A stretch of DNA of 64,000 nucleotides, taken from Wenxinia marina DSM 24838 (GTDB lineage: Bacteria > Pseudomonadota > Alphaproteobacteria > Rhodobacterales > Rhodobacteraceae). The position numbers and the translations under genes were made by a program. The stretch's first letter is position 1, and each line of letters opens with the position of its first letter. Positions 5,411-18,567 of the stretch are shown here, in pieces. The stretch is taken from positions 1 through 64,000 of the forward strand of contig NZ_KB902288.1 of assembly GCF_000379485.1 (NCBI RefSeq), in the 5' to 3' direction. The notes beneath the pieces were generated by a model. That model saw only the letters and a program-made list of their open reading frames with translations. It made no database searches and was not told where the DNA came from.

Positions 5411-5710
5411 GTGTCGGCCGTGCTCAGGCGCAACTCCTCGACCCTCGCGGCGCTCGCCACCGCGGTCCAGGCGCAGGATCCGCGCATGACCGTCTGGACC
5501 GGCAGCGACGCACACCTCGCGATGCTGAACGGCATCGTCGAGGCGCAGCCGGGCGTGACCGTCAGCTTCGAGACGGTGCCTTCCGACTACGTCCAGAAGA
5601 TCACCCTGCAGCTCGCCGGCGGCAACGCGCCGGACGTGGGCCGCCCTGCCCGAGACCTCGGCCCCCACCTTCGTCGACGCCGGCGTGGTGATCTCGACGC
5701 AAGGTCAGAT
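5411..5710 (+). pseudogene. Remnant of ABC transporter sugar-binding protein
   Basis: Starts with a weak signal-like segment ending VQAQ, then TVWTGSDAHLAMLNGIVE, and later VPSDYVQKITLQLAGGNAPDV. This is the N-terminal pattern of periplasmic extracellular solute-binding proteins (family 1). A few residues are missing after NGIVE. After NAPDVG (about 5641) the reading frame is wrong, but shifting by one base restores ALPETSAPTFVDAGVVIST. The sequence then stops near 5710, only ~15 bp before the tRNA-derived att repeat. So it has an internal deletion, a frameshift and a truncation, about 100 of the usual ~400 residues remain, and no permease genes accompany it. It is probably debris from an earlier event at the same tRNA hot spot. 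Confidence 0.75.
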
Positions 5711-5725
5711 GCTTAGGGAAACGGC

Positions 5726-5776
5726 TGGTAGCGGAGGAGGGACTTGAACCCCCGACACGCGGATTATGATTCCGCT
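5726..5776. repeat. attL: 51-bp copy of tRNA-Met 3' end
   Basis: Identical over 51 bp to 18517-18567, with mismatches immediately on both sides (5725/18516 and 5777/18568). It corresponds, on the minus strand, to the tRNA 3' part from the anticodon stem through the encoded CCA. No tRNA 5' half follows, so this copy is not a tRNA gene. It marks the end of the element distal to the integrase. Confidence 0.95.
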
Positions 5777-5892
5777 CGCTTCCGTTGAAAACAAACGACT
5801 TTTCTTCCAACTGGGGCAGTTTCGACGCTAAGCGGATCAATGGCTTAGCCGCCGTTTCCCAACCGCCAGTTCCGCTCCGACATCACGAACAA

Positions 5893-5919
5893 CCCCCTGC
5901 CTCGACCGGAAGCAGGGGG
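5893..5919 (+). terminator. Stem-loop, possible terminator
   Basis: Perfect 8-bp GC-rich stem CCCCCTGC (5893-5900) and GCAGGGGG (5912-5919) with an 11-nt loop, followed by CTTAGCTT rather than a clean T-run. It could shield the satellite operon from read-through entering at attL, or be a structured leader 60 bp upstream of the primase gene. The rest of 5777-5979 shows nothing else I can name. Confidence 0.4.
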
Positions 5920-5979
5920 CTTAGCTTGAACGGCCCGAAGAGATGACCTTGCAGGGCCCCCGGAGAAAGGAAACACTAC

Positions 5980-8064
5980 ATGGGGTATTCAGATACCGCA
6001 AAAATTGGGATAGGGCAAGAGATCGATCCACTCGACCGGCAGATCACCCTCACCCGCTTCAAGAGCGTCTATGACCGCGAAGCTCAGCAGCTGAGCGGGA
6101 CGCTGAGGAAGCTCGCAAAGGACATCGTCCGGAAGACGGCCCCCCGGAAGGAAGCTCTCTCCCTCATTAAGTTCGCGGAGTTCGGCACTGCCCGCTCGGA
6201 GAAGGGGTTCCTCCGGCACGACGCGAACGTGACGGGCATCAGCGGAATCGAGCTCGATTATGACAAGGGCGAGCGGACGCCCGAGGAGGCGGCTCGGCGC
6301 CTCAGGAACGCGGGCGTGGCGGGCATAGTCGTCACGTCGCCAAGCCATGGCCTGCCGGGCAAGGGCAACCGCTGGCGGCCCTATCTGCCGCTCAGCCGGA
6401 CCTATCCGCCCGAGGATCGTGAACCGCTCGCCCGCAAGGCGGCCGCGATCCTCGGGGGCGGCTTCGCAGGTGAGTCCTTCGCGCTCTCGACCGCCTTCTA
6501 TGCGGGCGGGCTCGACGGGCGGCCGCCCGAAGTCTTCCTGTCCGAAGGCGGGGCCTATCTCGACGAAGTCGACGACGTGGACGCCGCACCGCCGCGCGAT
6601 GATCGCGACCAGTCGGGCTCGGGGGTGGCGTTCCGCTTCCTCGCTGAGCGGGCGCACCGCGGCGTACGGGAGGAAGAGGCCGTTGAGGCCATCGCCGCCG
6701 ACGACGGCCCGGCGGGCGAGTGGTGGGGACGGACCGACAAGCGCCAGCGTCATCGGGCTCTCACCCGCGCTTACCAGCGGGCCGAGGAAGAGAGGGAAGC
6801 GACCATGGCTGACCTCGACGTCGACGATGACGTCGAGCTCGACGCTTGGATCGCCGAGCACGTCGGGCGCGTGGAAGAGGACTGGGGCACGCCGCTCATG
6901 CAGGGCGACCGCCCGGTGAACAACCTTCACAACGCGATCCACTACCTCGGGCGGAACCGCGACACGATCCTTCAGGGGCTCCGCTGGAACCTCCTCTCGC
7001 ATCGGGCCGAATGGGCTCGGGGCGAGATCGGGGCCGCGGAGGAGGGGCGGGTGCGGACCGGCCTCGAATTGCGGGGGATGCCCACGATCAAGGCCGAGCT
7101 CCTGAAGCCCGCGATCCGGGCCGTTGCGGAGCGGCGGTCCTATCACCCGATCCGCGACCAGCTCAACGCGGCCCGCCACGACGGCGTCCCGCGGCTCGAC
7201 ACGTGGCTCACGCGGTATCTCGGGGCCGAGGACGCGATCTACACCCGGGCCGTCGGGCGGGCCTTTCTTATCGCGATGGTGGCGCGGGTGATGGAGCCCG
7301 GCTGCAAGCACGATCACGTGCCGGTGCTGATCGGCCCGCAAGGCGGGGGGAAGAGCTCGGCGTGCCGCGTTCTCTCCGGTAGCGATTATTTCTCCGACAC
7401 GCTCCCGCCGATCAACGGGGGCAAGGAAGCGATGGATCACCTCCGGGGCCTGTGGCTGGTCGAGCTCGCCGAGCTGGCCCCGTCGCGGCGGGCGACCAAC
7501 CAGCATTTGAAGTCCTTTCTCTCGACGCAGGCGGACCGCTTCCGCGAAGCCTACGGCCGGTCCGATGAACGGTATCAGCGCCAGTGCGTCTTCGTCGGCA
7601 CCACCAACGAAGACACGTTCCTCCGGGACGCGACCGGGGGGCGTCGATTCTGGCCGATCCATTGCGGCAGGATTAACGTCGTGGGCTTGAAGAGCGCCCG
7701 CACCCAACTTTTCGCGGAGGCCGTCGCCGCCTACCGTGCGGGCGAGGCGTGGTGGCTCGACGGCGACGCGGAGGCCGCGGCGCGGGAAGAGCAGGAAGCG
7801 GCGTACGCGGCGCACCCGTGGGAAGAACCGATTGCCGCGTGGCTCGACAATCCGGCGGGGGACGACTCGTGCGAAGGGCCCCGCCAGCGTTGCACGGTTT
7901 GGGAGGTGATGGAGCTCGCCTTGGGCCTGCCCGCCCACATGCACGAGAGAAGCATGAAGCGGGTCGGCGACATCCTGAAGCGTCTCGGGTGGGAGAGGCA
8001 ACGCGACAGTGTGGGGCGGGCGTTCTGGGAACGCCCCGTCACGCAGTTGAGGATCGTCAAGTGA
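5980..8064 (+). CDS. VapE/VirE-family primase-helicase of the satellite
   Basis: 694 residues, ATG with AAAGGA about 9 nt upstream. The N-terminal ~270 residues look like a primase-polymerase-type region (GIELDYDKGERTPEEAA, then VVTSPSHG). The C-terminal half is a VapE/VirE superfamily-3-like helicase: Walker A GPQGGGKSSA near residue 452, Walker B-like LWLVELAEL, and the sensor stretch VGTTNEDTFLRDATGGRRFW. Such proteins initiate replication of PICIs and many tail-less satellites, usually at an origin close by. The repeat-rich block directly downstream (8065-8451) is the natural candidate. It is the first gene of the element and sets the direction of the whole unit. Confidence 0.85.
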   Translation: MGYSDTAKIGIGQEIDPLDRQITLTRFKSVYDREAQQLSGTLRKLAKDIVRKTAPRKEALSLIKFAEFGTARSEKGFLRHDANVTGISGIELDYDKGERTPEEAARRLRNAGVAGIVVTSPSHGLPGKGNRWRPYLPLSRTYPPEDREPLARKAAAILGGGFAGESFALSTAFYAGGLDGRPPEVFLSEGGAYLDEVDDVDAAPPRDDRDQSGSGVAFRFLAERAHRGVREEEAVEAIAADDGPAGEWWGRTDKRQRHRALTRAYQRAEEEREATMADLDVDDDVELDAWIAEHVGRVEEDWGTPLMQGDRPVNNLHNAIHYLGRNRDTILQGLRWNLLSHRAEWARGEIGAAEEGRVRTGLELRGMPTIKAELLKPAIRAVAERRSYHPIRDQLNAARHDGVPRLDTWLTRYLGAEDAIYTRAVGRAFLIAMVARVMEPGCKHDHVPVLIGPQGGGKSSACRVLSGSDYFSDTLPPINGGKEAMDHLRGLWLVELAELAPSRRATNQHLKSFLSTQADRFREAYGRSDERYQRQCVFVGTTNEDTFLRDATGGRRFWPIHCGRINVVGLKSARTQLFAEAVAAYRAGEAWWLDGDAEAAAREEQEAAYAAHPWEEPIAAWLDNPAGDDSCEGPRQRCTVWEVMELALGLPAHMHERSMKRVGDILKRLGWERQRDSVGRAFWERPVTQLRIVK

Positions 8065-8143
8065 TGTACTGTGGCTCCCGAAGGGTCCGAAGGGTCAGGG
8101 CAATGAACCCTTTGGACAAATCGCCCCACAAACAAGGGCTCCC

Positions 8144-8269
8144 GAAGGGTCTGAAGGGTCCGAAGGGTAAGTTTCTAGAGAGTACCTTGTGGGCTAGAGG
8201 GCCTGTAGGGGGGCATGGGGTCTGTGGGGCCGTTGAGGCTCAACACCATTCGGACCCTTCAGACCCTTC
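8144..8269. repeat. Perfect 21-bp inverted repeat, 84-bp spacer
   Basis: Positions 8144-8164 and 8249-8269 are exact reverse complements over 21 bp. Each arm contains two of the GAAGGGT units. Paired, they would fold into a long cruciform or stem enclosing the G-rich loop at 8165-8248. Confidence 0.85.
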
Positions 8270-8382
8270 AGGCGAGACGTCCGGTAAGCCGGTAAAGCAG
8301 CGTCTCGTAAGGACGATGGGTCCTTCCCCGCTTTCTGGGCTGCGGGGGGCGCGGAGCCCCGGCTTTTCCCCCTGCGGTAAAA

Positions 8383-8418
8383 TTACGAGACGGAAAACCC
8401 GATGGCCCCGTCTCGTAA
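8383..8418. repeat. Inverted repeat upstream of terS
   Basis: TTACGAGACGG (8383-8393) and CCGTCTCGTAA (8408-8418) form a perfect 11-bp stem with a 14-nt loop, ending 33 bp before the terS start. No T-run follows, so it is more likely a protein-binding or packaging element than a terminator. Confidence 0.7.
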
Positions 8419-8451
8419 GCCGGTAAATCTGACTTCGGTAAAGGACACGAT

Positions 8452-8949
8452 ATGGCTTCCGAAACCCTGACCCCCGAAGAGCTTGCGGAGATCGACGCGC
8501 TGGCAGGCGTCGAGCCCGTGGTGGCGGCCGAGCTCGCGGGATGGCTCGGGCTTACGGCGAACCGGGTGAACGCGCTCGCCCGCGACGGCGTCCTGCCGCG
8601 GACGGAAGACAACCGCTTCCCGCTCCGGGCCGCCATCCACGCCTACTGCCAGCACGCTCGGGCAGGGGCGACGGGCCGCCGGGCCGACGCGGAGCTCGCC
8701 GCCGAAAAGCTCCGCCTCGCCCGGGAGCAGGCCGACAAGATCGCGCTGCACAACGCTGTCACCCGGGGGGACATGCTCGACGCCCGGGACGTGGCGTCGG
8801 CGTGGCGAGGTATCGTGACGGACCTCCGGGCGGGCGTGCTCGCGATCCCGAGCCGGGTGGCCGCTAAGCTCGGGCTAGACCGGCACGCGACGGCCGTCCT
8901 CGACGCCGAGGTGCGGGCCGCGATGGAGGGCATCGCCGATGACGCTTGA
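8452..8949 (+). CDS. Terminase small subunit (Nu1-like)
   Basis: 165 residues; ATG preceded by AAAGGA about 7 nt upstream. The first ~60 residues contain a winged-helix-like DNA-binding segment (AAELAGWLGLTANRVNALARDGVLPR). A charged helix (AAEKLRLAREQADKIALHN) follows, then the LDARDV..AWRGIVTDLRAGVLAIPSR region typical of lambda Nu1-type small terminases. The small subunit recognises the packaging site and hands DNA to the large subunit. It overlaps terL by 11 bp. The repeat block just upstream may be its target. Confidence 0.8.
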   Translation: MASETLTPEELAEIDALAGVEPVVAAELAGWLGLTANRVNALARDGVLPRTEDNRFPLRAAIHAYCQHARAGATGRRADAELAAEKLRLAREQADKIALHNAVTRGDMLDARDVASAWRGIVTDLRAGVLAIPSRVAAKLGLDRHATAVLDAEVRAAMEGIADDA

Positions 8950-10711
8950 TCCCCGTTTCGACCGGCTCCGCCGCGATGCCTTCGCCGCCTTCCGGCCGCC
9001 CGCCAAGCTCGCACTCTCCGACTGGATCGAGGGCCACGTCTACCTCCCGAGCGCCATCGCCGCGCAGCCCGGGCGGATGCGCCTCTGGCCGCCGCAACGG
9101 GAGATCGCCGACGCTATCGGCGAGGAGTCGGTCGAGCGGGTGTCCATCCTTAAGAGCGCCCGTGTCGGGGCGACGCAGCTCATGGTCGGGGCGCTCGGCC
9201 ACTTCGTGCAGAACGATCCGGCCCCGGTCCTCGCCGTCGTCCCGGCCGAGGCCGACGCGCGGCATCTCATAGTCTCTGTCGTCGAGCCCACCTTCGCCGA
9301 GTCCCCCGCGCTCAGGGCCGCTCTGGCGGCCGACACGGCCGGGCGGGACACGATGCTGCACCGGCAGTTCGCGGGCGGCTCCCTGACCGTCGTGAGCGCC
9401 CACGCGCCGCGCAATCTCCGGGCCCGGACGGCTCGCGTCCTTTTCGCCGATGAAATCGACGCCTATGAGCTCTCGGCCGGAACGGAGGGCGATCCCGTCG
9501 AGCTCGCCATGCGGCGGACCATGACCTTCGGCAACCGCAAGATCGTGCTGGCCTCGACGCCCGTCGACGCCGAGACGTCGCGGATCGTGCGGGCCTATGA
9601 GCAATCCGACATGCGCGTCTTCGAGGTGCCGTGCCCGAGCTGCGGCACCTTCGGCGAGATACTGTGGAAGGATATCCGATGGGCCGCGGACAAGCCCGAG
9701 ACGGCGCATTGGCGCTGCCCGGCGTGTGAGGCCGAGGTGGCCGACCGGCAGAAGCCCCAGATGGTCGAGCAAGGCCGCTGGCGGGCCACACGGCCGGAGG
9801 TGGAGGGGCATCGGGGCTACAAGCTCACCTCCCTCACATCGACGCTCCCGAACGCCACATGGCCGCGGCTGGCGGCGGAGTTCCTTCAAGCGAAGCGCAG
9901 TCCGACCACACTCAAGCCGTGGCTCAATACCGTGCTCGGCGAGCCGTGGCGTGGCGAGGGCGACGACCTCGACGGGACCGACTTCGCCGCCCTGCAACGC
10001 CCCTTTGGGCTCGACCGTATCCCCGCCGAAGCCTTGGTCCTCACGGTCGGGGCGGACGTGCAGGCGGACCGGATCGAAGCGACCTTTGCCGGGTGGACGA
10101 AGGACGGCGACGTGCGAGTCCTGGGGCACGAAACCGTCTGGGGAGCGCCGACCGAGAACGAGACGTGGGCGGAGCTCGACGACCTCTTGCGGCGGCAGTT
10201 CCGCCACCCGGCCGGGGGCGTGCTCACGGTCGACGCGGCCGTGATCGACTCCGGCAACTGGGCCGACGCGGTCTATGCCTTCTGCCGCCCCCGCACGTCG
10301 CGCCGCGTGCTCGCCGGGAAGGGCGTCGCAGGCTTCAGCCGTCCGAGCCTCGCGTTCAGCACCTCGCGGGGCACTCGCCTTGCCCTGATCGGTATCGACG
10401 GGGTGAAGCTGGCCCTGCACCAGCGGATCGCCCACGGCGAAACGATCCTCTTCAGCAGCGCCCTGTCAGGCGACTACTTCGACCAGCTCCGCGCCGAGCG
10501 GCTTGTGACGAGGTTCAGCCGGGGCCACCCCGTGCGCCGCTGGGAAGTGGTCTCGGGCCGCCGCAACGAAGCCCTCGACACGTTGGTCTACGCCTACGGC
10601 GCCCGCGGGCTGATCGGGGCGGACGTCGAGCGGCGGGAAGCGGAGTTGGGGAAGGTGACGGGGCCGCCGAAGCCAGTTACCGTAGTGAAAAGCAGGTGGC
10701 TGTCGTCGTGA
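8939..10711 (+). CDS. Terminase large subunit (GpA family)
   Basis: 590 residues, the usual length for lambda gpA-like terminases. The ATPase part has a Walker A-like KSARVGATQL near residue 72 and Walker B VLFADEID near residue 167. Two CxxC pairs (CPSCG around residue 237, CPACE around residue 260) form a zinc-binding insert common in this family. The C-terminal nuclease region carries VGADVQADRIEATFAGW. It cuts concatemeric DNA and pumps it into procapsids. Start ATG at 8939 lies inside terS (translational coupling). It ends 13 bp before the DUF262 gene. Confidence 0.9.
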   Translation: MTLDPRFDRLRRDAFAAFRPPAKLALSDWIEGHVYLPSAIAAQPGRMRLWPPQREIADAIGEESVERVSILKSARVGATQLMVGALGHFVQNDPAPVLAVVPAEADARHLIVSVVEPTFAESPALRAALAADTAGRDTMLHRQFAGGSLTVVSAHAPRNLRARTARVLFADEIDAYELSAGTEGDPVELAMRRTMTFGNRKIVLASTPVDAETSRIVRAYEQSDMRVFEVPCPSCGTFGEILWKDIRWAADKPETAHWRCPACEAEVADRQKPQMVEQGRWRATRPEVEGHRGYKLTSLTSTLPNATWPRLAAEFLQAKRSPTTLKPWLNTVLGEPWRGEGDDLDGTDFAALQRPFGLDRIPAEALVLTVGADVQADRIEATFAGWTKDGDVRVLGHETVWGAPTENETWAELDDLLRRQFRHPAGGVLTVDAAVIDSGNWADAVYAFCRPRTSRRVLAGKGVAGFSRPSLAFSTSRGTRLALIGIDGVKLALHQRIAHGETILFSSALSGDYFDQLRAERLVTRFSRGHPVRRWEVVSGRRNEALDTLVYAYGARGLIGADVERREAELGKVTGPPKPVTVVKSRWLSS

Positions 10712-10724
10712 GAAGGGCCAGACC

Positions 10725-12416
10725 GTGAAGATTTCGTCTGACGATAAGAGAATCGAGGACCTACTTAAGGGCAATCGCTTCCTAATTCCTCGTTTCCAGC
10801 GGGAGTACTCTTGGGAGCCCGATCAAGTTTTGACTTTCTGGAACGACGTCAATGAGAACAAGGGGGAAAGTTACTTTATCGGTGCGATGGTTGTCTACAA
10901 AGAAGGCAATCTATTTGCGATCGTCGATGGTCAGCAAAGGTTAACCACCATTACGATATTCTTGTGCGCGATTCGAGATGCATTTGCCAGGCTTGGAGCG
11001 GATGATCTTGCAAGCGGGCTTCAGGAATACATTGAGAAAAGAGACAAGGAATATAAGACAGTCTACGTATTGAAGACTGAGACGTCATATCCTTTCCTGC
11101 AAGAAAAGATTTTGAAGGCTACTGAGCCGGAAATGGAGCTCAAAATTGGCCGGGAGGAGGAGGCCATATCCCAAGCATTTGCAATTTTCGAGGAGAATAT
11201 TGCCCGTTCAGTAGAGCGCTTCTTCGACAACAAGGAGCAAACTAGAGATGCAAACACAATCGATGCGGTCAGGTGGCTGAGCGGGCTGAGAGACGCAGTT
11301 CTAGAACTGTCAGTAATATTGGTCTCTCTCGAAAACGAGGACGACGCCTATCTGATCTTTGAGACACTTAACACCCGGGGTAAAGACCTCGCACTTGTCG
11401 ACTTGCTTCGCAATCACTTCTCGAAACATTTGAAGCCAAATTCGGAAGTGGATCAGACAAAGCATAAATGGCGGGAAATACTTGATACGATCAGCAGCTC
11501 TCCTGTGAGGCTGGACCCCGATCAGTTTGTCGTCCACTCGTGGCAGTCGCGCTACGATTTTGTGGGAAAAGCAAAGGTTTTTTCGAAGGTCAAAGAGCTT
11601 ATTAATGAGACCAATGCCAAAGGTCATCTGGACAGGTTAGTTAGTGACGCGGCACAATGGCGCTCGATGTTTGACACTCAGTTCGGTTGGAATAAAGACG
11701 AGAAGAGTGCAGCCCGTTCGCTTGCGGCCTTGAGGGTATTTCGTGTCGTCCAGCCTGCGCCAGGGCTGTTATCCCTCGTGCGGGCTTATCGTGATGGCAT
11801 CATAAAATATAAGACCTTAAGGAACGCTCTTTCTGCAATCGAGAAGTTCCACTTTAGTTTTAATGCCGTCACTTCGTCGCGATCATCTGGTGGAATTTCT
11901 GGTATGTACTCTTCGTTCGGCAGGCAGGTCTTTAGTGCAAAAGATAGTAACCAAGTCGGAATTGCGATCGGAGACCTTATTGCTAAGCTGCGCGAGAGAG
12001 AAGTGCCGGAAGCGGAATTCGATGTTGGATTCCAGCAGATAATCTTCACAAATCTATATGCTTCCGAGAAATCCCTAGTTCAGTACATTCTTAGGAAGAT
12101 CGCGAAGGCGGAGGCGCAGCCATTTTTGGGGGACTCCGAGGACTTAACGATTGAGCATCTCCTTCCGCAGTCGTCCTCTAAGTCAGATGATGATGAACAT
12201 GTTATTGGTCAGCTCGGCAACCTTTTTCTTGTAGATTCGGAAACAAATGGTCTGCTGGCAGACAAGGGTTTTGCGGAAAAGAAGGAGGTTCTTGTGGGTC
12301 GCGGATACAAGTTGCCTCCGCTGTTGAGTGAAGCCGAGACAATTTCGCGTGATCTAATCGAGGAAAACACACGTCGTCTAAGCGAGTTGGCTAGGTCGAG
12401 CGTTTGGAAGGTTTGA
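10725..12416 (+). CDS. GmrSD-like DUF262-DUF1524 fusion (candidate anti-phage nuclease)
   Basis: 563 residues from GTG at 10725. DUF262 at the N-terminus: RFLIPRFQREYSWEPDQV (residues 18-35), YFIGAMVVY, the IVDGQQRLTTI motif (66-76, with the DGQQR nucleotide-handling core), and later LIFETLNTRGKDL. DUF1524, an HNH-like nuclease, at the C-terminus: IEHLLPQ (476-482), LGNLFLV (498-504), then N508 and KGFAEKK. This pairing occurs in type IV restriction enzymes such as GmrSD and in related systems (BrxU, SspE) that cut modified phage DNA. The gene is visibly AT-richer than its neighbours, with rare codons for this genome, so it looks like recently acquired cargo placed between terL and portal. 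Confidence 0.85.
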   Translation: MKISSDDKRIEDLLKGNRFLIPRFQREYSWEPDQVLTFWNDVNENKGESYFIGAMVVYKEGNLFAIVDGQQRLTTITIFLCAIRDAFARLGADDLASGLQEYIEKRDKEYKTVYVLKTETSYPFLQEKILKATEPEMELKIGREEEAISQAFAIFEENIARSVERFFDNKEQTRDANTIDAVRWLSGLRDAVLELSVILVSLENEDDAYLIFETLNTRGKDLALVDLLRNHFSKHLKPNSEVDQTKHKWREILDTISSSPVRLDPDQFVVHSWQSRYDFVGKAKVFSKVKELINETNAKGHLDRLVSDAAQWRSMFDTQFGWNKDEKSAARSLAALRVFRVVQPAPGLLSLVRAYRDGIIKYKTLRNALSAIEKFHFSFNAVTSSRSSGGISGMYSSFGRQVFSAKDSNQVGIAIGDLIAKLREREVPEAEFDVGFQQIIFTNLYASEKSLVQYILRKIAKAEAQPFLGDSEDLTIEHLLPQSSSKSDDDEHVIGQLGNLFLVDSETNGLLADKGFAEKKEVLVGRGYKLPPLLSEAETISRDLIEENTRRLSELARSSVWKV

Positions 12417-12441
12417 GGTCGCTTGGGCGAACTCGTAATAT

Positions 12442-12714
12442 TTAGTAGCCCAGAAGCTTGACGCGCGCGTTCGTGATGCGCGCGACAGCGTCTCGAAAGA
12501 TCGGATCGACTTTGCATCGGGCCTGCACGGCTTCGTCTGATGCCTCCCGAGGCATTCCGACTCCCGTGATTTTCTCGACGTGCTTCATCTCCGACATGAC
12601 GAACCGTTCGAAAGCTCTCCGGCGCTGACGGCTGGACCTCTCGAAAGCGTTCCTGCTGTTGACGAAGTGGCCGGCCCGCATCGTTCCGGCCAAGTGCCGC
12701 GCATAAGGGAGCAT
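12442..12714 (-). CDS. Small satellite protein of unknown function
   Basis: 90 residues, the only minus-strand gene of the element. ATG at 12714 has GAGG 7 nt upstream. The protein is basic and helical-looking (RNAFERSSRQRRRAFERFVMSEMKHVEKI), without a recognisable domain, Cys cluster or membrane segment. It converges on the DUF262 gene with a 25-bp gap and is divergent from the MerR-like gene. It may be a regulator or part of the same cargo module as the DUF262 gene; this is a guess from position. Confidence 0.5.
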   Translation of the reverse strand: MLPYARHLAGTMRAGHFVNSRNAFERSSRQRRRAFERFVMSEMKHVEKITGVGMPREASDEAVQARCKVDPIFRDAVARITNARVKLLGY

Positions 12715-12840
12715 GGATTACCTCTTCTCCGGGAGGGGTGCGCTCCCGACCGACCCTCTACTTTCGGCCGGGAGCGCGGACGGCTGGCAGCGATGCCGTG
12801 CTACCGAATCCCGCATACCCCAAGTCAAACTCCATGTCCA

Positions 12841-12869
12841 TTGACTCGGAGTCAGACTCCGATTACTCC
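12841..12869 (+). promoter_or_regulatory. Palindromic operator with promoter-like TTGACT
   Basis: A perfect palindrome with 8-bp arms and 1-bp centre, TCGGAGTC-a-GACTCCGA (12846-12862), begins within a -35-like TTGACT (12841-12846) and lies 36 bp upstream of the MerR-like HTH gene. Related half-sites ACTCC occur just upstream and downstream. MerR-family regulators bind dyads between -35 and -10, so this could be an autoregulatory site. The rest of 12715-12840 holds nothing I recognise. Confidence 0.45.
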
Positions 12870-12897
12870 AGCATCGTCACGAAGAGGAGTCGAAGAG

Positions 12898-13521
12898 ATG
12901 ACCAAAGAGTACGGGGGGCCGGTCATGTACCAGCCCGTCACGAAGAACCCCGGGGCGTACCTGACGGCGGGCGAGCTGGCGGACGTGATCCTGCACGATC
13001 ACGAAGACAAGGCCGCCGTGGCCGACCGGCTGCGCTGGTACTTCAAGCAAGGGTATCTGACCCCGGCGGCGCGCGAGACGGAGGGCCGCAAGTCGTGGCT
13101 CTTCCAGCCCGAAGAGGCCTTGGTCGCCGATGCGCTGACCCGGCTGCATCGCTTCGTCGGCAACAACGACCGGGCGGCCCGCGCCGTGATGCTGGCCTTG
13201 AGCGGCTGGCGCGTGGGCGACCGCCCGGAAGGCATGGAAGCCGAGTTCGAGGCGACCCCCGCGCGGCACGTCATCGCCGAGTACGTCGCCGGGCACCGCG
13301 ACTGGAATCTTGAGGTGTGGGCGTTCTACCGGCCCGACAACGCCGACCTGCACTTCGAGGCGCGGATCATGACGCTCGCCAAGCGCGAAGGGACCACGCT
13401 CGGCTTCACCAGCAACAAGAATTACGTGGTCGAGTCCGTCTGGGCCATCGAGCTCACCCCGGCTCTCGACCGCTTCTATCCGAAGGTCCAAGCGATCTTC
13501 GACAAGCGGGCCATGCACTAA
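12898..13521 (+). CDS. MerR-like HTH protein of the satellite
   Basis: 207 residues from ATG at 12898 (GAGGAG about 8 nt upstream). Residues ~20-80 read as a winged helix of MerR type (LTAGELADVILHDHEDKAAV, then LRWYFKQGYLTPAARETEGRK and WLFQPEEALVADALTRL). The C-terminal ~100 residues (EVWAFYRPDNADLHFEARIM) are unfamiliar. It overlaps the portal start (TAATG). A DNA-binding protein in front of the head genes, with a dyad upstream of it, is a candidate switch for late-gene expression. Direct evidence for that role is lacking. Confidence 0.6.
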   Translation: MTKEYGGPVMYQPVTKNPGAYLTAGELADVILHDHEDKAAVADRLRWYFKQGYLTPAARETEGRKSWLFQPEEALVADALTRLHRFVGNNDRAARAVMLALSGWRVGDRPEGMEAEFEATPARHVIAEYVAGHRDWNLEVWAFYRPDNADLHFEARIMTLAKREGTTLGFTSNKNYVVESVWAIELTPALDRFYPKVQAIFDKRAMH

Positions 13522-14900
13522 TGGCCTTCCCGTTCCTGCCGAAGTCCTTCGTCAACCGCTTCACCCGCGACGCGCCCGAGCCGTCGCGGGTGCGCCGCGT
13601 CGACGCGGCGGCGGTCGGGCGGCGAGGCAGGAGCATGGCCGTCTTCGGATCGGTCAACCCGGAGGTGGCGGCAGGCGGCAGGCTCTCCCGCGAGCGGGCA
13701 AGGTATCTTGCAGTCAATCAACCGTTCCTCACCAACGGCACCCATAATTGGATCACGGCCCTCGTGGGGACGGGGATTCGACCGACGCCTCGCGCCCCCA
13801 ACGCCGAGCTTGGCTTCGCGTTCGACGCTTGGGCCGAGGAAGCGGACCATGCCGGGCGCGCGGACTTCTGGGGGCTTCAGGCGACTATCGCCCGGCACCT
13901 CGTGGTCGACGGCGAGGCGCTGATCCTGTTGCACGATACGCCCGACGGGCTGCGCCTTCAGGTTATCCCGCCCGAGCAACTGGACGAGTCCAGGAACGCG
14001 CGGCTCGGCGACGATCGGGAGATCGTGCAGGGGGTCGAGTTCGATGCCCAAGGTCGGCGCGTGGCGTATCACATCCTGCCGCAACAGCCGACCGCGACCT
14101 TCGAGCACTACGCCCCGCCGGTCCGCGTCGACGCGGCGGACGTGTTGCACATCGTCCAGCCCATCGCAGCCGGGCAGGTGCGGGGCCTGTCGTGGCTCGC
14201 CGCGGCCGTGCTGACCGCCAATGAGTTTGACCAGCTCCTAGATGCGCTCTTGGTCGGAGCGAAGATCGCCGCCATGCACGCGGGCTTCATCACCGACACG
14301 ACCAACATGGGTGGGATAGGGGCGGCGTTCCCGGACGCCGATGGCCTCAGCGACATCAGCCTTGAGCCGGGCGTGGTTCGAGTGCTGCCCGGCGGGTGCG
14401 ACATCAAGTTCTCTTCGCCGGAGGCGGCGAAGGACTCGCCCGCCTTCGTTCGGATGAATCTCCTCGCCCTCGCCGCTGCGCTCGGCCTGCCCGAGCACAT
14501 GCTGTCGGGCGACCTGACCAACGCCAACTATTCCTCCCTGCGGGCAGGACTCCTGCCGTTCCGGGCGCGTGTGGAGCAGACGCAGTACGGCGTGCTCGTG
14601 CCTCAGCTCCTTCGTCCCGTCTGGCGGCGCTGGCTGGCGAGCGAAGTGGTGGCAGGGCGGCTCGACGTGTCGCCCGACATCCGGGCCGAGTGGATCATGC
14701 CGCGCCAAGCGCAGGTCGACCCCGCGAAGGATATGACCGCCGTGAAAGAGGCGCTGTCCATGGGCCTCATGTCCCGCTCGCAGGCGGTAGCCGAGATGGG
14801 CTGGAACGCGGCCGACCTCGACGCGGAGATCGCCGCCGACCACGCCCGCGAGCGCGAGCTGGGGCTGACCTTCACGGACAAGGAGTCCGGCGATGCCTGA
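13521..14900 (+). CDS. Phage portal protein (lambda-type)
   Basis: 459 residues. Contains the features of lambda gpB-like portals: TNGTHNWITALVGTGIRP near residue 75, DGEALILLHDTPDGLRLQVIPPEQ near 130-155, an LHIVQPIAAGQVRGLSWL stretch near 215, and GLPEHMLSGDLTNANYSSLR near 325. The portal forms the dodecameric vertex through which terminase packages DNA and to which the connector attaches. ATG at 13521 shares a base with the stop of the upstream gene. The end overlaps the protease start by 8 bp, so the head genes are one translational chain. Confidence 0.92.
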   Translation: MAFPFLPKSFVNRFTRDAPEPSRVRRVDAAAVGRRGRSMAVFGSVNPEVAAGGRLSRERARYLAVNQPFLTNGTHNWITALVGTGIRPTPRAPNAELGFAFDAWAEEADHAGRADFWGLQATIARHLVVDGEALILLHDTPDGLRLQVIPPEQLDESRNARLGDDREIVQGVEFDAQGRRVAYHILPQQPTATFEHYAPPVRVDAADVLHIVQPIAAGQVRGLSWLAAAVLTANEFDQLLDALLVGAKIAAMHAGFITDTTNMGGIGAAFPDADGLSDISLEPGVVRVLPGGCDIKFSSPEAAKDSPAFVRMNLLALAAALGLPEHMLSGDLTNANYSSLRAGLLPFRARVEQTQYGVLVPQLLRPVWRRWLASEVVAGRLDVSPDIRAEWIMPRQAQVDPAKDMTAVKEALSMGLMSRSQAVAEMGWNAADLDAEIAADHARERELGLTFTDKESGDA

Positions 14901-15294
14901 GACGATGCTGACCCGAGCGGCGCAGCCCCGCACGTCCACATTCAACGCCGAGCTGAGGACGGTCGAAGCGGTCATCGCGACGGCGTCCCCCGTCATCCGG
15001 CGCGACGCGCGCGGCGAGTACGCCGAAGTCTTCGACGTGTCGGCCTTCGACCTCAGCTCGGCCGTGGGCCTCCCGGTCCTCGACTCTCATCGCACCGGAT
15101 CGGCCAAGGACGCCATCGGTCGCGTGGAGGCCGTGCGGGTCGAAGGCGATACGCTTGTCGCGACGCTGCGCTTCAGCTCGGCCAGCGACGTCGAGCCGAT
15201 CCTGCAACGGATCGCCGACGGCACCCTGACCGGGGTTTCGGTCGGCTACCGCGTCAGCGCGTGGAAAGAGCACTTCGGAGAGATCAATGGCTAA
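14893..15294 (+). CDS. Prohead protease, N-terminal part (HK97-type)
   Basis: 133 residues. Matches the HK97/U35 protease fold: AVIATASPVIRRDARGEYAEVFD, then LPVLDSHRTGS with the catalytic-type His near residue 71, VGRVEAVRVEGDTLVATLRF and GVSVGYRVSAWKE. It ends early at a TAA. The part expected next in this family (RxRxxAAxLxEVSIxxxPADPxA) is encoded in the +1 frame as the N-terminus of the following gene. The domain is therefore divided between two overlapping ORFs by frameshift, by natural gene splitting or by an assembly indel. It would cleave the scaffold and delta domain during head maturation. Confidence 0.75.
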   Translation: MPETMLTRAAQPRTSTFNAELRTVEAVIATASPVIRRDARGEYAEVFDVSAFDLSSAVGLPVLDSHRTGSAKDAIGRVEAVRVEGDTLVATLRFSSASDVEPILQRIADGTLTGVSVGYRVSAWKEHFGEING

Positions 15295-16684
15295 GACGCG
15301 CATCCGCACCCCCGCAGCCGCCCAGCTGACAGAAGTCAGCATCACCAGCAACCCGGCGGACCCCTCTGCCCGCCTTCGGCATGACCAGAGGAGCTCCAAC
15401 ATGCCCGATACTCCCGAAACCACTCCCGCGCGCGTGGCCGCGGTGCCGCCCGCAGGCTATGTCCGCGCGCTCGTCCACACCATGGGCTTGCCGGAGGAGC
15501 TGGGCGACCAGCTCATCGACGCGCGGGCCGACGACGTTGCCGTCAGGCAGGCCGTCTCAGAAGCGATGGAGGGCAAGCGCAGCCGCCCTGTGATCCGCGT
15601 GCACGGCGGCGGCAATGACGACCCGGCCGTGATCCGCGAGCGCCGGGCCGATGCCTTGCACGTCCGCATGGCGGGCGGCGAGCCGAAGCCCGAGGTGCGC
15701 CAGTATCTCGCCGAGTCCGTGCTCGACACGGCCCGCGACGCGCTGGCCCGCGTGGGCGTCTCGACGCGGGGCCTCAGCCCCGACGACGTCTTCACCCGGG
15801 CGGCCGAGCACACCACGTCCGACTTCCCACTGATCGTGTCCAACGCCATGAACAAGACGGCGCTGGCCTCCTACCGGGCCGCCGCGACGCCGCTGAAGAC
15901 GCTCGGGCGGCAGCGCGGGCTTTCCAACTTCAAGCCCGCTTCCGCCATCCGCCTCGGCGAAATGGGACGGCTGGAAGAGCTGGCCGAGTCCGGCGAGTTC
16001 ACCCACACCACCCGCGCCGAGAACGGCGAGACGATGCGCCTGACCACCTACGGCCGGGCGATCAACGTGAGCCGGAAGCTCCTCATCAACGATGACCTCG
16101 GGATGCTGGGCGACATGACGGCCGCCTTCGGCGAGGCCGCGGCGCAGACCGAGGCCGATGTGCTGGTCGAGCTCATCACCGGCAACCCGGACCTGAGCGA
16201 CGGCACGCCCGTCTTCGATGCGAGCCGGGGCAACCTCGCCGGGACCGGCCTCGCGCTTGGCTCCGCGGGCGACGTGGCGGCGCTGGAAGGCGCGCGGAAG
16301 GCCATGCGCGGCGTGACCGGCCTCGACGGCAAGACGCTCATCAACGTGACGCCCAAGTACCTCTTGGTGGGGCCGGAGCTGGAGTCGGCCGCCGAGCGCC
16401 TGTTGGCGACGATCTACCCGGCCACGGTCGCGGACGTGAACGCCTTCGGCTCCAAGCTCTCCCTCTTGGTCGAGCCGCGGATCACGGATGATCGCTGGTA
16501 CGTCTTCGCCGACCCGGCCCGCCTCCCGGCGATCCAGTACGGCTACCTCAGCTCGGCGCAGGGCGTGCAAATCCAGCGCGCCGAGGCGTGGGACACGCTG
16601 GGGCTGAAGTTCCGCGCGTGGCTCGACTTCGGAGCCGGGTGGCTGGACTGGCGGGGTGCCTACCTCAACGAAGGCGAGGCGTGA
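15287..16684 (+). CDS. Major capsid protein with protease C-terminal remnant
   Basis: 465 residues from ATG at 15287, which has GGAGAG 4-9 nt upstream and overlaps the protease stop by 8 bp. Residues 1-32 (RIRTPAAAQLTEVSITSNPA) continue the prohead-protease domain in a new frame. An alternative start at 15401 has a strong GGAG ribosome site and would give a 427-residue capsid protein only. From ~40 on it resembles the capsid half of phage prohead protease/major capsid fusion proteins, with ASYRAAATPLKTLGRQRGL, INVSRKLLINDDL, QTEADVLVELITGNPDL and the C-terminal GAGWLDWRGAYLNEG. It forms the head shell. Confidence 0.85.
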   Translation: MAKTRIRTPAAAQLTEVSITSNPADPSARLRHDQRSSNMPDTPETTPARVAAVPPAGYVRALVHTMGLPEELGDQLIDARADDVAVRQAVSEAMEGKRSRPVIRVHGGGNDDPAVIRERRADALHVRMAGGEPKPEVRQYLAESVLDTARDALARVGVSTRGLSPDDVFTRAAEHTTSDFPLIVSNAMNKTALASYRAAATPLKTLGRQRGLSNFKPASAIRLGEMGRLEELAESGEFTHTTRAENGETMRLTTYGRAINVSRKLLINDDLGMLGDMTAAFGEAAAQTEADVLVELITGNPDLSDGTPVFDASRGNLAGTGLALGSAGDVAALEGARKAMRGVTGLDGKTLINVTPKYLLVGPELESAAERLLATIYPATVADVNAFGSKLSLLVEPRITDDRWYVFADPARLPAIQYGYLSSAQGVQIQRAEAWDTLGLKFRAWLDFGAGWLDWRGAYLNEGEA

Positions 16685-16905
16685 TGGCCCTCACCCTCGA
16701 CCAGCTCACGAAGTCCCGGGACGCGCTGATCGCGGCGCGTTCCGACGGCGTGCGGCGCTTCCGCGACCAGAACGGCGAAGAGGTGGAGTTCAAGTCCGAC
16801 GCCGAGATGGCCCGGGCGCTCGCCGCCCTCGACCGCGAGATCGCGACCCTCGCCGGACGGCCCGCGCCGACGGCGCTCCACTTCACCACCTCGAAAGGAA
16901 CCTGA
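16684..16905 (+). CDS. gpW-like head-tail connector
   Basis: 73 residues, the size of lambda gpW (about 68). Starts LTLDQLTKSRDALIAARSDG, followed by EEVEFKSDAEMARALAALDREIA, the usual two-helix plus beta-hairpin pattern of gpW family proteins. ATG at 16684 overlaps the capsid stop (TGATG). gpW plugs the portal after packaging and creates the tail docking surface. In a tail-less element this is the part that would have to fit a helper's tail. Confidence 0.75.
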   Translation: MALTLDQLTKSRDALIAARSDGVRRFRDQNGEEVEFKSDAEMARALAALDREIATLAGRPAPTALHFTTSKGT

Positions 16906-16906
16906 G

Positions 16907-17236
16907 ATGCGCAACTTCGTCCAGCCGGGCGAGTCGATCACCGTCACGGCCGCCGCCGCGGCCGCGAGCGGGGACGGCGTCAAGCTCGGCCAGCTCTTCG
17001 GCATCGCCTCTGGCGATGCCGCCATCGGCGAGCCGCTGGTCCTGACGACCCGCGGTGTCTTCGACATGCCCAAGGTCTCGACTGACGCCTTCGCCGTCGG
17101 TGACGCCGTCTACTGGCGCACCTCCGACGGGGCCGTGACCGCCACGGCCAGCGGCAACACGAAGATCGGCGTCGCCGTCACCGCCGCGGGCAACCCCTCA
17201 GCCAGCGTCCACGTGCGCCTGAACGGCACGTTCTGA
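16907..17236 (+). CDS. DUF2190 capsid decoration-type protein
   Basis: 109 residues starting MRNFVQPGESITVTAAAAAA, with VKLGQLFGIASGDAAIGEPL, TRGVFDMPKVSTDAFAVGD and AVYW. This is the pattern of DUF2190 proteins, which lie downstream of capsid genes in many phages and are thought to be head decoration (cement) proteins. It starts directly after the gpW-like gene and ends the head module; the next genes are for integration. Confidence 0.8.
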   Translation: MRNFVQPGESITVTAAAAAASGDGVKLGQLFGIASGDAAIGEPLVLTTRGVFDMPKVSTDAFAVGDAVYWRTSDGAVTATASGNTKIGVAVTAAGNPSASVHVRLNGTF

Positions 17237-17240
17237 AACC

Positions 17241-17447
17241 ATGGGGCGGCGGGCCTCCAACTTCCGACAAGGGGACGTCGAGCGGGCGGTGAAAGCCGTT
17301 CGCTCGCAAGGCCTCGACGTCGTGAAGGTGGAAGTTTCGCCCGATGGGACAATCGGCGTTACCGTGGTCAAAGGGCACGAGTCGGAAGCCCTGCCGTTTG
17401 ATAACTGGAGGGCACGACGTGCGCGTCAGGCTGAAGGGCGTGAATAG
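17241..17447 (+). CDS. Small protein upstream of integrase (possible excisionase)
   Basis: 68 residues: MGRRASNFRQGDVERAVKAV then GLDVVKVEVSPDGTIGVTVV. Basic N-terminal helix, then a short beta segment. Proteins of this size and pattern often precede integrases in alphaproteobacterial prophages; their role is not known to me. Its last 29 bp overlap the integrase start, so the two are translationally linked. A recombination directionality factor is a reasonable guess only. Confidence 0.55.
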   Translation: MGRRASNFRQGDVERAVKAVRSQGLDVVKVEVSPDGTIGVTVVKGHESEALPFDNWRARRARQAEGRE

Positions 17448-18459
17448 GGTCTCGAAGCGTCTCGCCGACGGGTCGAGCGTCACTTATTACTATGCGTGGA
17501 AGGGCGGTCCGCGACTGCCCGGCAAACCCGGAGCGCCCGAGTTCATTGCGGCGTACAACGCGGCCGTGGCCGAGCGCCTCCAGCCCCCGCCCGGCACCCT
17601 CTCCTCGGTCCTCAGGGCCTATCAGGACGCGCCCAAGTTCCAAGACCTCGCGCTCCGCACCCGTCGCGACTACGCGAAGCACATCGCAAAGATTGAGGAA
17701 GATTTCGGCGACTTCCCCATCGCCGCCCTGAGCGACCGGCGCACCCGCGGGGAGTTCATGAACTGGCGCGACCGCCTCGCCGCCAAGTCGCGTCGGCAGG
17801 CCGACTACGCCTTCGCCGTGCTCGCCCTGATCCTAGCATGGGCCTACGACCGCGGAGCGGTACCCGCCAACCCGTGCGAACGTCCGGGCAAGCTCTACCG
17901 CTCGACCCGAGTCGACAACATCTGGACGGCCGAGGACGAAGCCGCCTTCCTGAAGGTCGCGCCGCCGCACATCGGCCTCGCCTTCATGCTCGCTATCTGG
18001 ACCGGCCAGCGGCAAGGCGACCTCCTCCGGCTGACGTGGAAGGCCTACAACGGCTCGACGATCCGGCTCCGCCAACGGAAGGGCAACGTTCCGGTAGAGG
18101 TGCCTGTTGGCGCTCCGCTCCGGGCGATCCTCGAGGCGACCAAGCGGGAAGCGGTGACGATCCTCTCGACGACCCGAGGCACGTCTTGGACCGAATCCGG
18201 CTTCCGAGCGTCTTGGCGTAAGGCGTGCGAGGCGGCCGGGGTTGAAGACCTGACCTTCCACGATCTTCGCGGATCAGCCGTCACGCGCCTTGCCGTTGCT
18301 GGAGCACAGGTCCCTCAAATCGCCGCTGTCACCGGACACGATTTGAAGCGGGTCGAGACGATCATGCGAGACCACTACCTCGGCCGTGATTCGGCGCTCG
18401 CCGCCACCGCAATCCGCCTCTTGGAAGCATACGAAGGAAGAACGAAAATCCCCAACTGA
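17419..18459 (+). CDS. int: Tyrosine-recombinase integrase
   Basis: 346 residues from GTG at 17419 (GGAGGG about 8 nt upstream). Catalytic residues visible: R198 in WTGQRQGDLLRLTW, H281-x-x-R284 in LTFHDLRGSAVTRLA, H307 in AAVTGHDLKRVE and nucleophile Y320 in MRDHYLGRD. The N-terminal part (residues 60-150) is a SAM-like core-binding domain. It integrates the element into the 3' end of tRNA-Met. It lies 57 bp from attR and points toward the tRNA, as usual for tRNA-targeting integrases. Confidence 0.93.
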   Translation: MRVRLKGVNRVSKRLADGSSVTYYYAWKGGPRLPGKPGAPEFIAAYNAAVAERLQPPPGTLSSVLRAYQDAPKFQDLALRTRRDYAKHIAKIEEDFGDFPIAALSDRRTRGEFMNWRDRLAAKSRRQADYAFAVLALILAWAYDRGAVPANPCERPGKLYRSTRVDNIWTAEDEAAFLKVAPPHIGLAFMLAIWTGQRQGDLLRLTWKAYNGSTIRLRQRKGNVPVEVPVGAPLRAILEATKREAVTILSTTRGTSWTESGFRASWRKACEAAGVEDLTFHDLRGSAVTRLAVAGAQVPQIAAVTGHDLKRVETIMRDHYLGRDSALAATAIRLLEAYEGRTKIPN

Positions 18460-18516
18460 CCTCCCAACTGGTCTAACCGAGTCGGGCCGGAAGCTAGGTA
18501 AGTCGTTGAAGATAAA

Positions 18517-18567
18517 TGGTAGCGGAGGAGGGACTTGAACCCCCGACACGCGGATTATGATTCCGCT
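18517..18567. repeat. attR: 51-bp repeat within tRNA-Met
   Basis: Exact copy of 5726-5776. This integrase-proximal copy completes the tRNA gene. Confidence 0.95.

Follow-up and report, generated by a model that had tools for sequence, protein, structure and literature searches.

Tail-less capsid-encoding element at a tRNA-Met gene of Wenxinia marina: a probable member of a widespread alphaproteobacterial lineage of phage satellites

Results

The DNA analysed here (the window) comprises 64,000 nucleotides of Wenxinia marina DSM 24838 (Rhodobacteraceae; contig NZ_KB902288.1, positions 1 to 64,000), and this work concerns an integrated element of 12,842 bp located at positions 5726-18567, which carries its own head and packaging genes together with an integrase and a replication gene. 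An earlier note on this DNA had listed att repeats, an integrase, a VapE-type protein, terS and terL, a portal, a protease, a capsid, a gpW-like connector and a DUF2190 protein, and all of them were recovered at the places given.

The element is flanked by exact 51-bp direct repeats of the 3' end of tRNA-Met, the left copy at 5726-5776 and the right one at 18517-18567 (both unstranded), the latter forming the 3' part of the tRNA-Met gene c18517-18593. The longest exact match between the two 3-kb flank regions after shuffling was 16 bp (200 shuffles). For comparison, the remaining 3-kb blocks of the window, taken as 91 pairs, gave matches of up to 45 bp. The window holds dispersed repeats, and with a 45-bp match elsewhere the length of the att repeats is by itself no proof; it is their position at the tRNA 3' end that marks them as att. 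The dispersed repeats, between 23079 and 40883, include a 144-nt unit in four copies (the other copies 63-85% like the reference), the 36-nt end of which occurs in five copies at most 97% alike. A genome of the same genus (G050) kept the tRNA-Met and the right flank without the element; its left flank was not syntenic, and therefore the empty site was seen from one side only. A short open reading frame (ORF) at 5411-5716 ends just left of the left att and resembles, by eye, the start of an extracellular solute-binding protein. The IMG/VR entry UViG 2515154190_000002 is the same element, all twelve element proteins being 100% identical, and the accessible text of the W. marina genome paper mentions only "several prophage-associated gene sequences" (PMC4148994).

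ORF calling is approximate in GC-rich DNA. The order of genes on the forward strand begins with a VapE-type helicase/primase-like replication protein of 694 amino acids (5980-8064; PF05272, E = 5.9e-78; phrog_256), followed by the terminase small subunit, terS (8452-8949; phrog_57, E = 6.3e-21), and a large subunit, terL, of the gpA type with ATPase and nuclease parts (8939-10711; PF05876, PF20454). Next comes a cargo gene for a GmrSD-like nuclease with N and C domains and a putative defence role (10725-12416; PF03235, PF07510; PADLOC Orf5/HEC-06), and then a pre-portal gene (12898-13521) and a portal gene of the lambda gpB type (13521-14900; PF05136, E = 7.9e-77 for the frame from 13515). The N-terminal part of a prohead protease (14893-15294; positions 1-120 of the NF045541 profile) stops inside the protease domain, and the rest of that domain lies with the major capsid protein in another frame (15287-16684; NF045541 127-633, 512 bits; PF25209). 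A gpW-type head-tail adaptor (Ad1; 16684-16905; phrog_2545, E = 3.4e-11) precedes a head decoration or cement protein (16907-17236; PF09956, E = 1.8e-31; phrog_122); PF09956, Phage_cement_2, is what we take to be the DUF2190 of the earlier note. The order ends with orf68 (17241-17447), in the place where many relatives have a small Xis/AlpA-like helix-turn-helix (HTH) gene, and a tyrosine integrase (17419-18459; phrog_1, E = 6.5e-40 for the frame 17344-18456).

Scans of the element ORFs (Pfam, PHROG and NF profiles) gave no match to families of tail, lysis or CI-like proteins, in agreement with what had been noted before, except that a regulator is probably present at 12898-13521, as judged from its predicted fold. 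At E ≤ 0.01 the capsid ORF matched PF25209 and PF10124 only, not PF05065, and no HNH family appeared in a Pfam scan of ten element ORFs; the GmrSD_C domain of the cargo presumably belongs to an HNH-related clan, yet it is no packaging gene.

Related genomes were searched for the same tail-less block, as the earlier note had proposed with tRNA-Met in mind, and the block proved widespread. A scan of genome contigs with two peptide patterns, which is not a census, gave at least 73 distinct related loci in named genomes, spread over Rhodobacterales, Hyphomicrobiales and Caulobacterales. The carriers include Acuticoccus (Hyphomicrobiales), Sinorhizobium psoraleae, Methylopila, Hansschlegelia, Aureimonas and Ancylobacter, the last five of which we take to be Hyphomicrobiales as well, and Asticcacaulis, presumably of the Caulobacterales. 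Tail-less loci bounded by tRNA-linked direct repeats numbered 48 of the 73, with a repeat spacing of 10,353-13,251 bp (mean 12,157); the remaining 25 comprise fragments, loci at the ends of contigs and loci in which no tRNA-linked repeat was seen. The tRNA labels of the 48 bounded loci were Ser (14), Met (7), Glu (6), Phe (5), Cys (5), Arg (3), Val (2) and Tyr (2), with one each for Pro, Thr, Lys and SeC, the SeC locus having tRNA-Trp at its other end. All seven head and packaging genes were detected in 35 of these bounded elements; gpW alone went undetected in 12, and L089 had no detected capsid, gpW or cement gene. Some elements carry the integrase at the left (L109, L119, L130 and L139), and in several genomes two elements are present (R. 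bhavnagarense, M. capsulata and Corticibacterium).

The tail-lessness of these loci was followed with five tail proteins of the C24 prophage of W. marina, described below, which had matches at 0 of the 73 loci in the merged match lists; the same five queries found tail genes at 7 of 15 other class-level loci. A portal search of 295 genomes of the family, with at most five candidates scored per genome and likewise no census, gave matches at E ≤ 1e-40 in 83 genomes, and the clade of the window comprised 15 loci in 14 of these 83, the window's own included. A class search of 385 genomes returned a mixed set at E ≤ 1e-60, with 28 genomes and with tailed prophages among the loci. Among phages and plasmids, the portal matched 283 and 123 records, respectively, all below 60% identity (top matches: AcaML1, 41.4%, and a Paracoccus plasmid, 40.6%); gpW matched only three phage records, all of AcaML1 (E = 0.01), and no phage record matched the element as a whole in megablast.

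A portal tree of 109 rows was computed with a quick IQ-TREE run and SH-aLRT support only, leaving out an own-genome copy (L032), 13 loci duplicating included contigs, two portal-less loci and sequences of at most 330 amino acids. The label "clade" was given to every row outside the tailed, undetermined and group-B lists (group B is treated at the end of this report), so that its 83 rows include fragments without a known tail state. These 83 rows, together with L035 and L159, formed one group with an SH-aLRT of 100, L035 being identical to the clade row L083, and the 11 rows labelled as tailed, two of them (L047 and L048) from ORF maps only, fell outside it. As an independent test of tail-lessness, all 138 portal rows of the 295-genome search were examined for a tail terminator (phrog_4204), and one lay within 12 kb of the portal at 0 of 15 clade loci, 0 of 11 group-B loci (six assigned by match likeness and five by the tree) and 69 of 112 others.

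Some members of the clade are closely similar in hosts of different orders. L076 of Acuticoccus mangrovi (Hyphomicrobiales) and L078 of Rhodovulum bhavnagarense (Rhodobacterales) share 89.8% DNA identity over 9.1 kb, and further pairs reached 95.6% over 9.4 kb (L075/L078), 95.2% over 11.4 kb (L098/L100) and 91.1% over 7.9 kb (L080/L102). In L075/L078 and L076/L078 the replication module or the integrase differs although the elements are otherwise near-identical, and from these alignments such modules appear to be swapped between elements. In six pairs, dN/dS was 0.04-0.11 for terL, 0.05-0.11 for the portal and 0.08-0.19 for the capsid, with upper values of 0.35 for gpW (measured in two pairs) and 0.24 for the cement protein; where values were higher, for some integrases and one replication gene, the sequences compared were non-orthologous or strongly diverged. 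By this measure the head genes of the six pairs are under purifying selection, and the lineage, judged by its sequences, is real, mobile and under selection.

The interval that holds the GmrSD gene in W. marina recurs among the relatives. Counting partial loci and L141, which is outside the clade, terL lies before the portal on the same strand in 62 of the 73 loci, with a median gap of 1,908 bp, and the GC content of this slot is below that of its own locus in 61 of the 62 (mean difference -0.08; W. marina slot, 0.54). The alignment breaks inside the interval in six of seven pairs with at least 89% identity and both genes present, L075/L078 being the pair that runs through it. This cargo slot is a new feature, general to the lineage; the earlier note had placed it within a gene order of the element's own, and the cargo does lie there, but the order is not peculiar to W. 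marina and extends through three orders of bacteria. The GmrSD cargo is shared with L034 (68% identical). Five cargo proteins of a first Pfam scan had no match, and 20 further ones divided at E ≤ 0.01 into 11 with a match and 9 without. Seven of the 20 exceeded Pfam's own cut-off (caspase C14, DUF2806 twice, DUF2971, DUF4062, MrcB_N with HNH, and T5orf172/MUG113), and four matched more weakly (DUF3800, Elf1-like, DUF2971 and HEPN); PADLOC, at E ≤ 0.001, recognized 2 of 10 scanned cargo proteins, the caspase and a type IV restriction/endonuclease. The cargo may be described as exchangeable and partly defence-like, a defence function being suggested by the family names. Cargo proteins with no Pfam match, among them L087:7659-8813, L134:7956-8954 and L098:7758-8600, are candidates for undescribed defence or accessory systems.

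The pre-portal ORF had no convincing family match in Pfam, PHROG or NF profiles, and neither had its family in a PHROG search. An iterated profile, in which drift is possible, matched 66 of 70 candidates found in the same place. The closest structure to an AlphaFold2 model built from 13 sequences (pLDDT 88.8) was CvkR, a MerR-type regulator (7xn2; VIA-align Z 9.9, 132 residues aligned, root-mean-square deviation 3.4), other MerR-type domains giving a Z of about 5-7. Since Foldseek found no match at E ≤ 0.001 in PDB or BFVD (best E, 5e-3), the likeness to CvkR rests on that Z score and that E value. According to the model, the pre-portal protein is probably a MerR/CvkR-like regulator. For a regulator of the AlpA/Stl type, the relatives gave weak HTH_17/Tn916-Xis matches below the cut-off; the regulator candidates in the window are instead orf68, which by its position may be the excisionase, and the MerR/CvkR-like protein.

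Upstream of the pre-portal gene, at 12846-12862, there is an unstranded dyad with 8-bp arms, TCGGAGTC-A-GACTCCGA, adjoining a TTGACT hexamer. Dyads before this gene had a mean arm of 6.0 in 58 loci vs 4.8 in shuffles, and those before terS a mean arm of 5.2 in the loci with the terS region found. This enrichment is modest, with only some loci individually notable, and it is suggestive of a candidate operator/promoter at 12846-12862. An iteron-like region at 8073-8272 (unstranded), between the VapE and terS genes, might be the replication origin: with both strands counted, 8065-8451 holds four copies of the 9-mer ACCCTTCGG, a number reached in 0 of 300 shuffles. Iteron-like repeats, each region with its own 9-mer, were found in 9 of 14 regions at no more than 3 of 300 shuffles, and in the other five the repeats did not exceed the shuffles; the borders of the regions follow the ends of matches, and some coding DNA may lie within them. 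Such region-specific 9-mers would fit origins read by a dedicated replication protein.

Discussion

We consider it very probable that the W. marina element is a member of a long-lived alphaproteobacterial lineage of tail-less capsid-forming phage satellites. Its new features are the terL-portal cargo slot, the predicted CvkR/MerR-like pre-portal regulator and the iteron-like repeats; no description of the lineage was found in the open literature, subscription literature and preprints lying outside the search, and the word "satellite" is absent from the main text of a survey of Rhodobacteraceae prophages (PMC8224337). In the cycle that we propose, a helper tailed phage would infect the cell or be induced, and the element would excise by means of its integrase and orf68 or an AlpA/Xis-like partner. 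Replication would start from the iterons adjoining the primase/helicase gene, and the portal-capsid operon would be expressed under the element's own MerR/CvkR-like regulator. The gpA-type terminase would then package the roughly 12-kb genome into small heads made by the element, and the gpW-type adaptor would close each head and dock helper tails, the helper also lysing the cell. Exchangeable, partly defence-like cargo, GmrSD in W. marina, would travel in the terL-portal slot.

Several observations weigh against this interpretation. Decayed or partial copies exist (L083, L089, L101 and L144), and the clade also holds L159, whose genes are rearranged in order and which may or may not have a tail. 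Of the 112 portal loci outside the clade and group B, 43 likewise lack the tail terminator phrog_4204 nearby, so that its absence alone is no proof of tail-lessness. Within whole genomes, phrog_4204 was not significantly linked to the element, occurring in 6 of 14 carriers vs 77 of 281 others (Fisher p = 0.23), and the C-terminal end of the gpW protein of the C24 prophage is unlike that of the satellite.

Another such point is the division of NF045541, a family of fused prohead protease and major capsid proteins, between two out-of-frame ORFs in the W. marina copy, the conserved TEVS..NPADP stretch lying in the second. The gene is one open in-frame ORF in 67 of the 69 named-genome loci where both halves were found; of the other two, L087 changes frame, and L103 reads open across the joint and has its counted stop elsewhere. 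Carriers with an uninterrupted gene include Rhodovulum bhavnagarense, Sediminimonas qiaohouensis and Methylopila capsulata. A programmed frameshift was rejected, as with so few exceptions the split is not conserved. The split may reflect damage to this copy, a wrong assembly or a working, translationally coupled arrangement. A sequencing or assembly error is possible; the 41-scaffold assembly is described as Illumina-based, and a second one with 454 data, AONG00000000, exists (PMC4148994). Because the frame change splits the gene, the W. marina copy may be head-defective and its description in the earlier note as complete is doubtful, while that of a tail-less integrated element with a head of its own holds.

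The split also favours the idea that the element is a cryptic remnant, left when deletion removed the tail and lysis genes of a prophage, as do the phage-type head genes and the few decayed relatives. Nevertheless, elements of the same size and tail-less make-up are found at many tRNA genes, in three orders and within one clade; six pairs show purifying selection, and elements have moved recently from host to host. These findings speak against a remnant, and we regard this origin as improbable. At the level of the family it is very unlikely, being rejected by synteny, the portal tree and tail-terminator proximity; the same head genes joined to a tail module, named beforehand as the refuting case, were not found in the clade members examined by loci, tree and terminator.

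The satellites known as capsid-forming phage-inducible chromosomal islands (cf-PICIs), for which the original paper by Alqurainy et al. in 2023 reportedly inferred at least three origins, share the functional logic of the element. They encode their own capsid and terminase and, having no tails, use those of a helper (PMC10690885, PMC10803314, PMC13230959, in the portions available). Likewise, the W. marina element has its own capsid, portal, protease, connector, terminases, integrase and replication gene, a similar size and no tail, helper tails being suggested here by the genes. The naming of the element as cf-PICI-like is thus apt as an analogy; membership was not borne out, as neither a PF05065 capsid nor a packaging HNH was matched. 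PF05065 (HK97-type) is the capsid family used for 900 published cf-PICIs, and an element classed as cf-PICI in the same article has HNH and an Stl-like regulator (PMC13230959, accessible text). The W. marina lineage differs in its fused protease-capsid (PF25209/NF045541), gpA terminase and lambda-type portal, without a packaging HNH, as well as in having gpW after the capsid, a MerR/CvkR-like protein before the portal, the terL-portal cargo and an integrase that is usually last. The published hosts differ too, being primarily Enterobacteriaceae, Pasteurella, Morganellaceae and Firmicutes groups, as far as the available text states (PMC10803314). An arrival of cf-PICIs sensu stricto in alphaproteobacteria is therefore a slender prospect, and because the head type differs, gene content points to a likely separate origin from the published cf-PICIs.

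Other satellites offer partial likenesses. The Streptomyces satellites MulchRoom and MiniFlayer also have genes for terminases, a portal, a capsid and a head-tail adapter, and the capsids of MulchRoom are small, with tails of helper length; by their description in the portion of the article available, they are set apart by another host phylum, direct terminal repeats, a scaffolding protein and virulent helpers (PMC10690885). P4-like satellites, of similar size at about 10 kb (PMC10803314, available text), are reported as a hotspot of anti-phage systems (PMC9122126, available text). The W. marina element differs from them in having a capsid gene of its own. P4 has its own replication protein and uses the capsid of its helper, without a capsid gene.

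As to the helper, the earlier note had advised looking in the same genome for a tailed prophage with a matching head-tail joining protein. The C24 prophage (about 163000-198000; L070, L071) is a lambda-like siphovirus which resembles the element in its gpA terminase, lambda portal, fused protease-capsid, cement protein and gpW-type adaptor, and it has a tail terminator, tail proteins and a tape measure; phrog_2545 occurs in the W. marina genome only there and in the element. In contrast to the element, its tail module is present, its gpW-family gene lies between terL and portal, and its portal is only 33% identical. The C24 prophage is a candidate helper with tail genes and a protein of the gpW family; however, it may not be the helper, because its gpW ends differently. 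We hold it conceivable, though far from probable, that the lineage arose as a separate capsid-forming satellite with a lambda-type head and was transmitted for long across the class with helpers of more than one phage family, gpW accepting very different tails, possibly including those of the gene transfer agents (GTAs) resident in many of its hosts. The GTA-type marker TIGR02217 was found over its cut-off at C1:179869-180495 (288 bits), and an RcGTA-like cluster is probably present in the genome.

Spread without tailed particles, with heads serving tail-less or GTA-like transfer, or movement mainly by ordinary transduction of the chromosomal site, is the least probable of the explanations weighed; no helper was identified and no significant link with one prophage tail family was seen, but the gpW-type adaptor, with a C-terminal T-S-K-G near-invariant in 17 aligned proteins, points to tail docking, and gpW-family proteins of tailed phages are located at the neck. 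A gene transfer agent of the RcGTA type, which has its own tail and no integrase, att site or replication gene, was rejected, as integrase, att and VapE are present and a tail was not found.

If the satellite interpretation is true, the lineage, present in at least three alphaproteobacterial orders, would be a second architecture with another head type, and the theft of tails would have arisen once more, starting from an unrelated head module. Putative defence genes would then be travelling between orders in a vehicle so far overlooked in roseobacters and rhizobia. The range of tails accepted by these heads, and the worth of the terL-portal slot as a source of new anti-phage systems, would become open to direct test.

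Two further observations concern the surroundings of these genes. Behind the GmrSD gene, the W. marina element has a small reverse-strand ORF of 51 amino acids without assigned function (12442-12597), and in several relatives small reverse ORFs from other sequence clusters occupy the equivalent place. Finally, group B formed one group of six rows in the portal tree, with a support of 100, beside the tailed row L161. These head-bearing loci (L064, L065, L066, L068 and L160) have no phrog_4204 nearby and a portal about 41% identical, and they are possibly another satellite family; several of them adjoin tRNA-Met.

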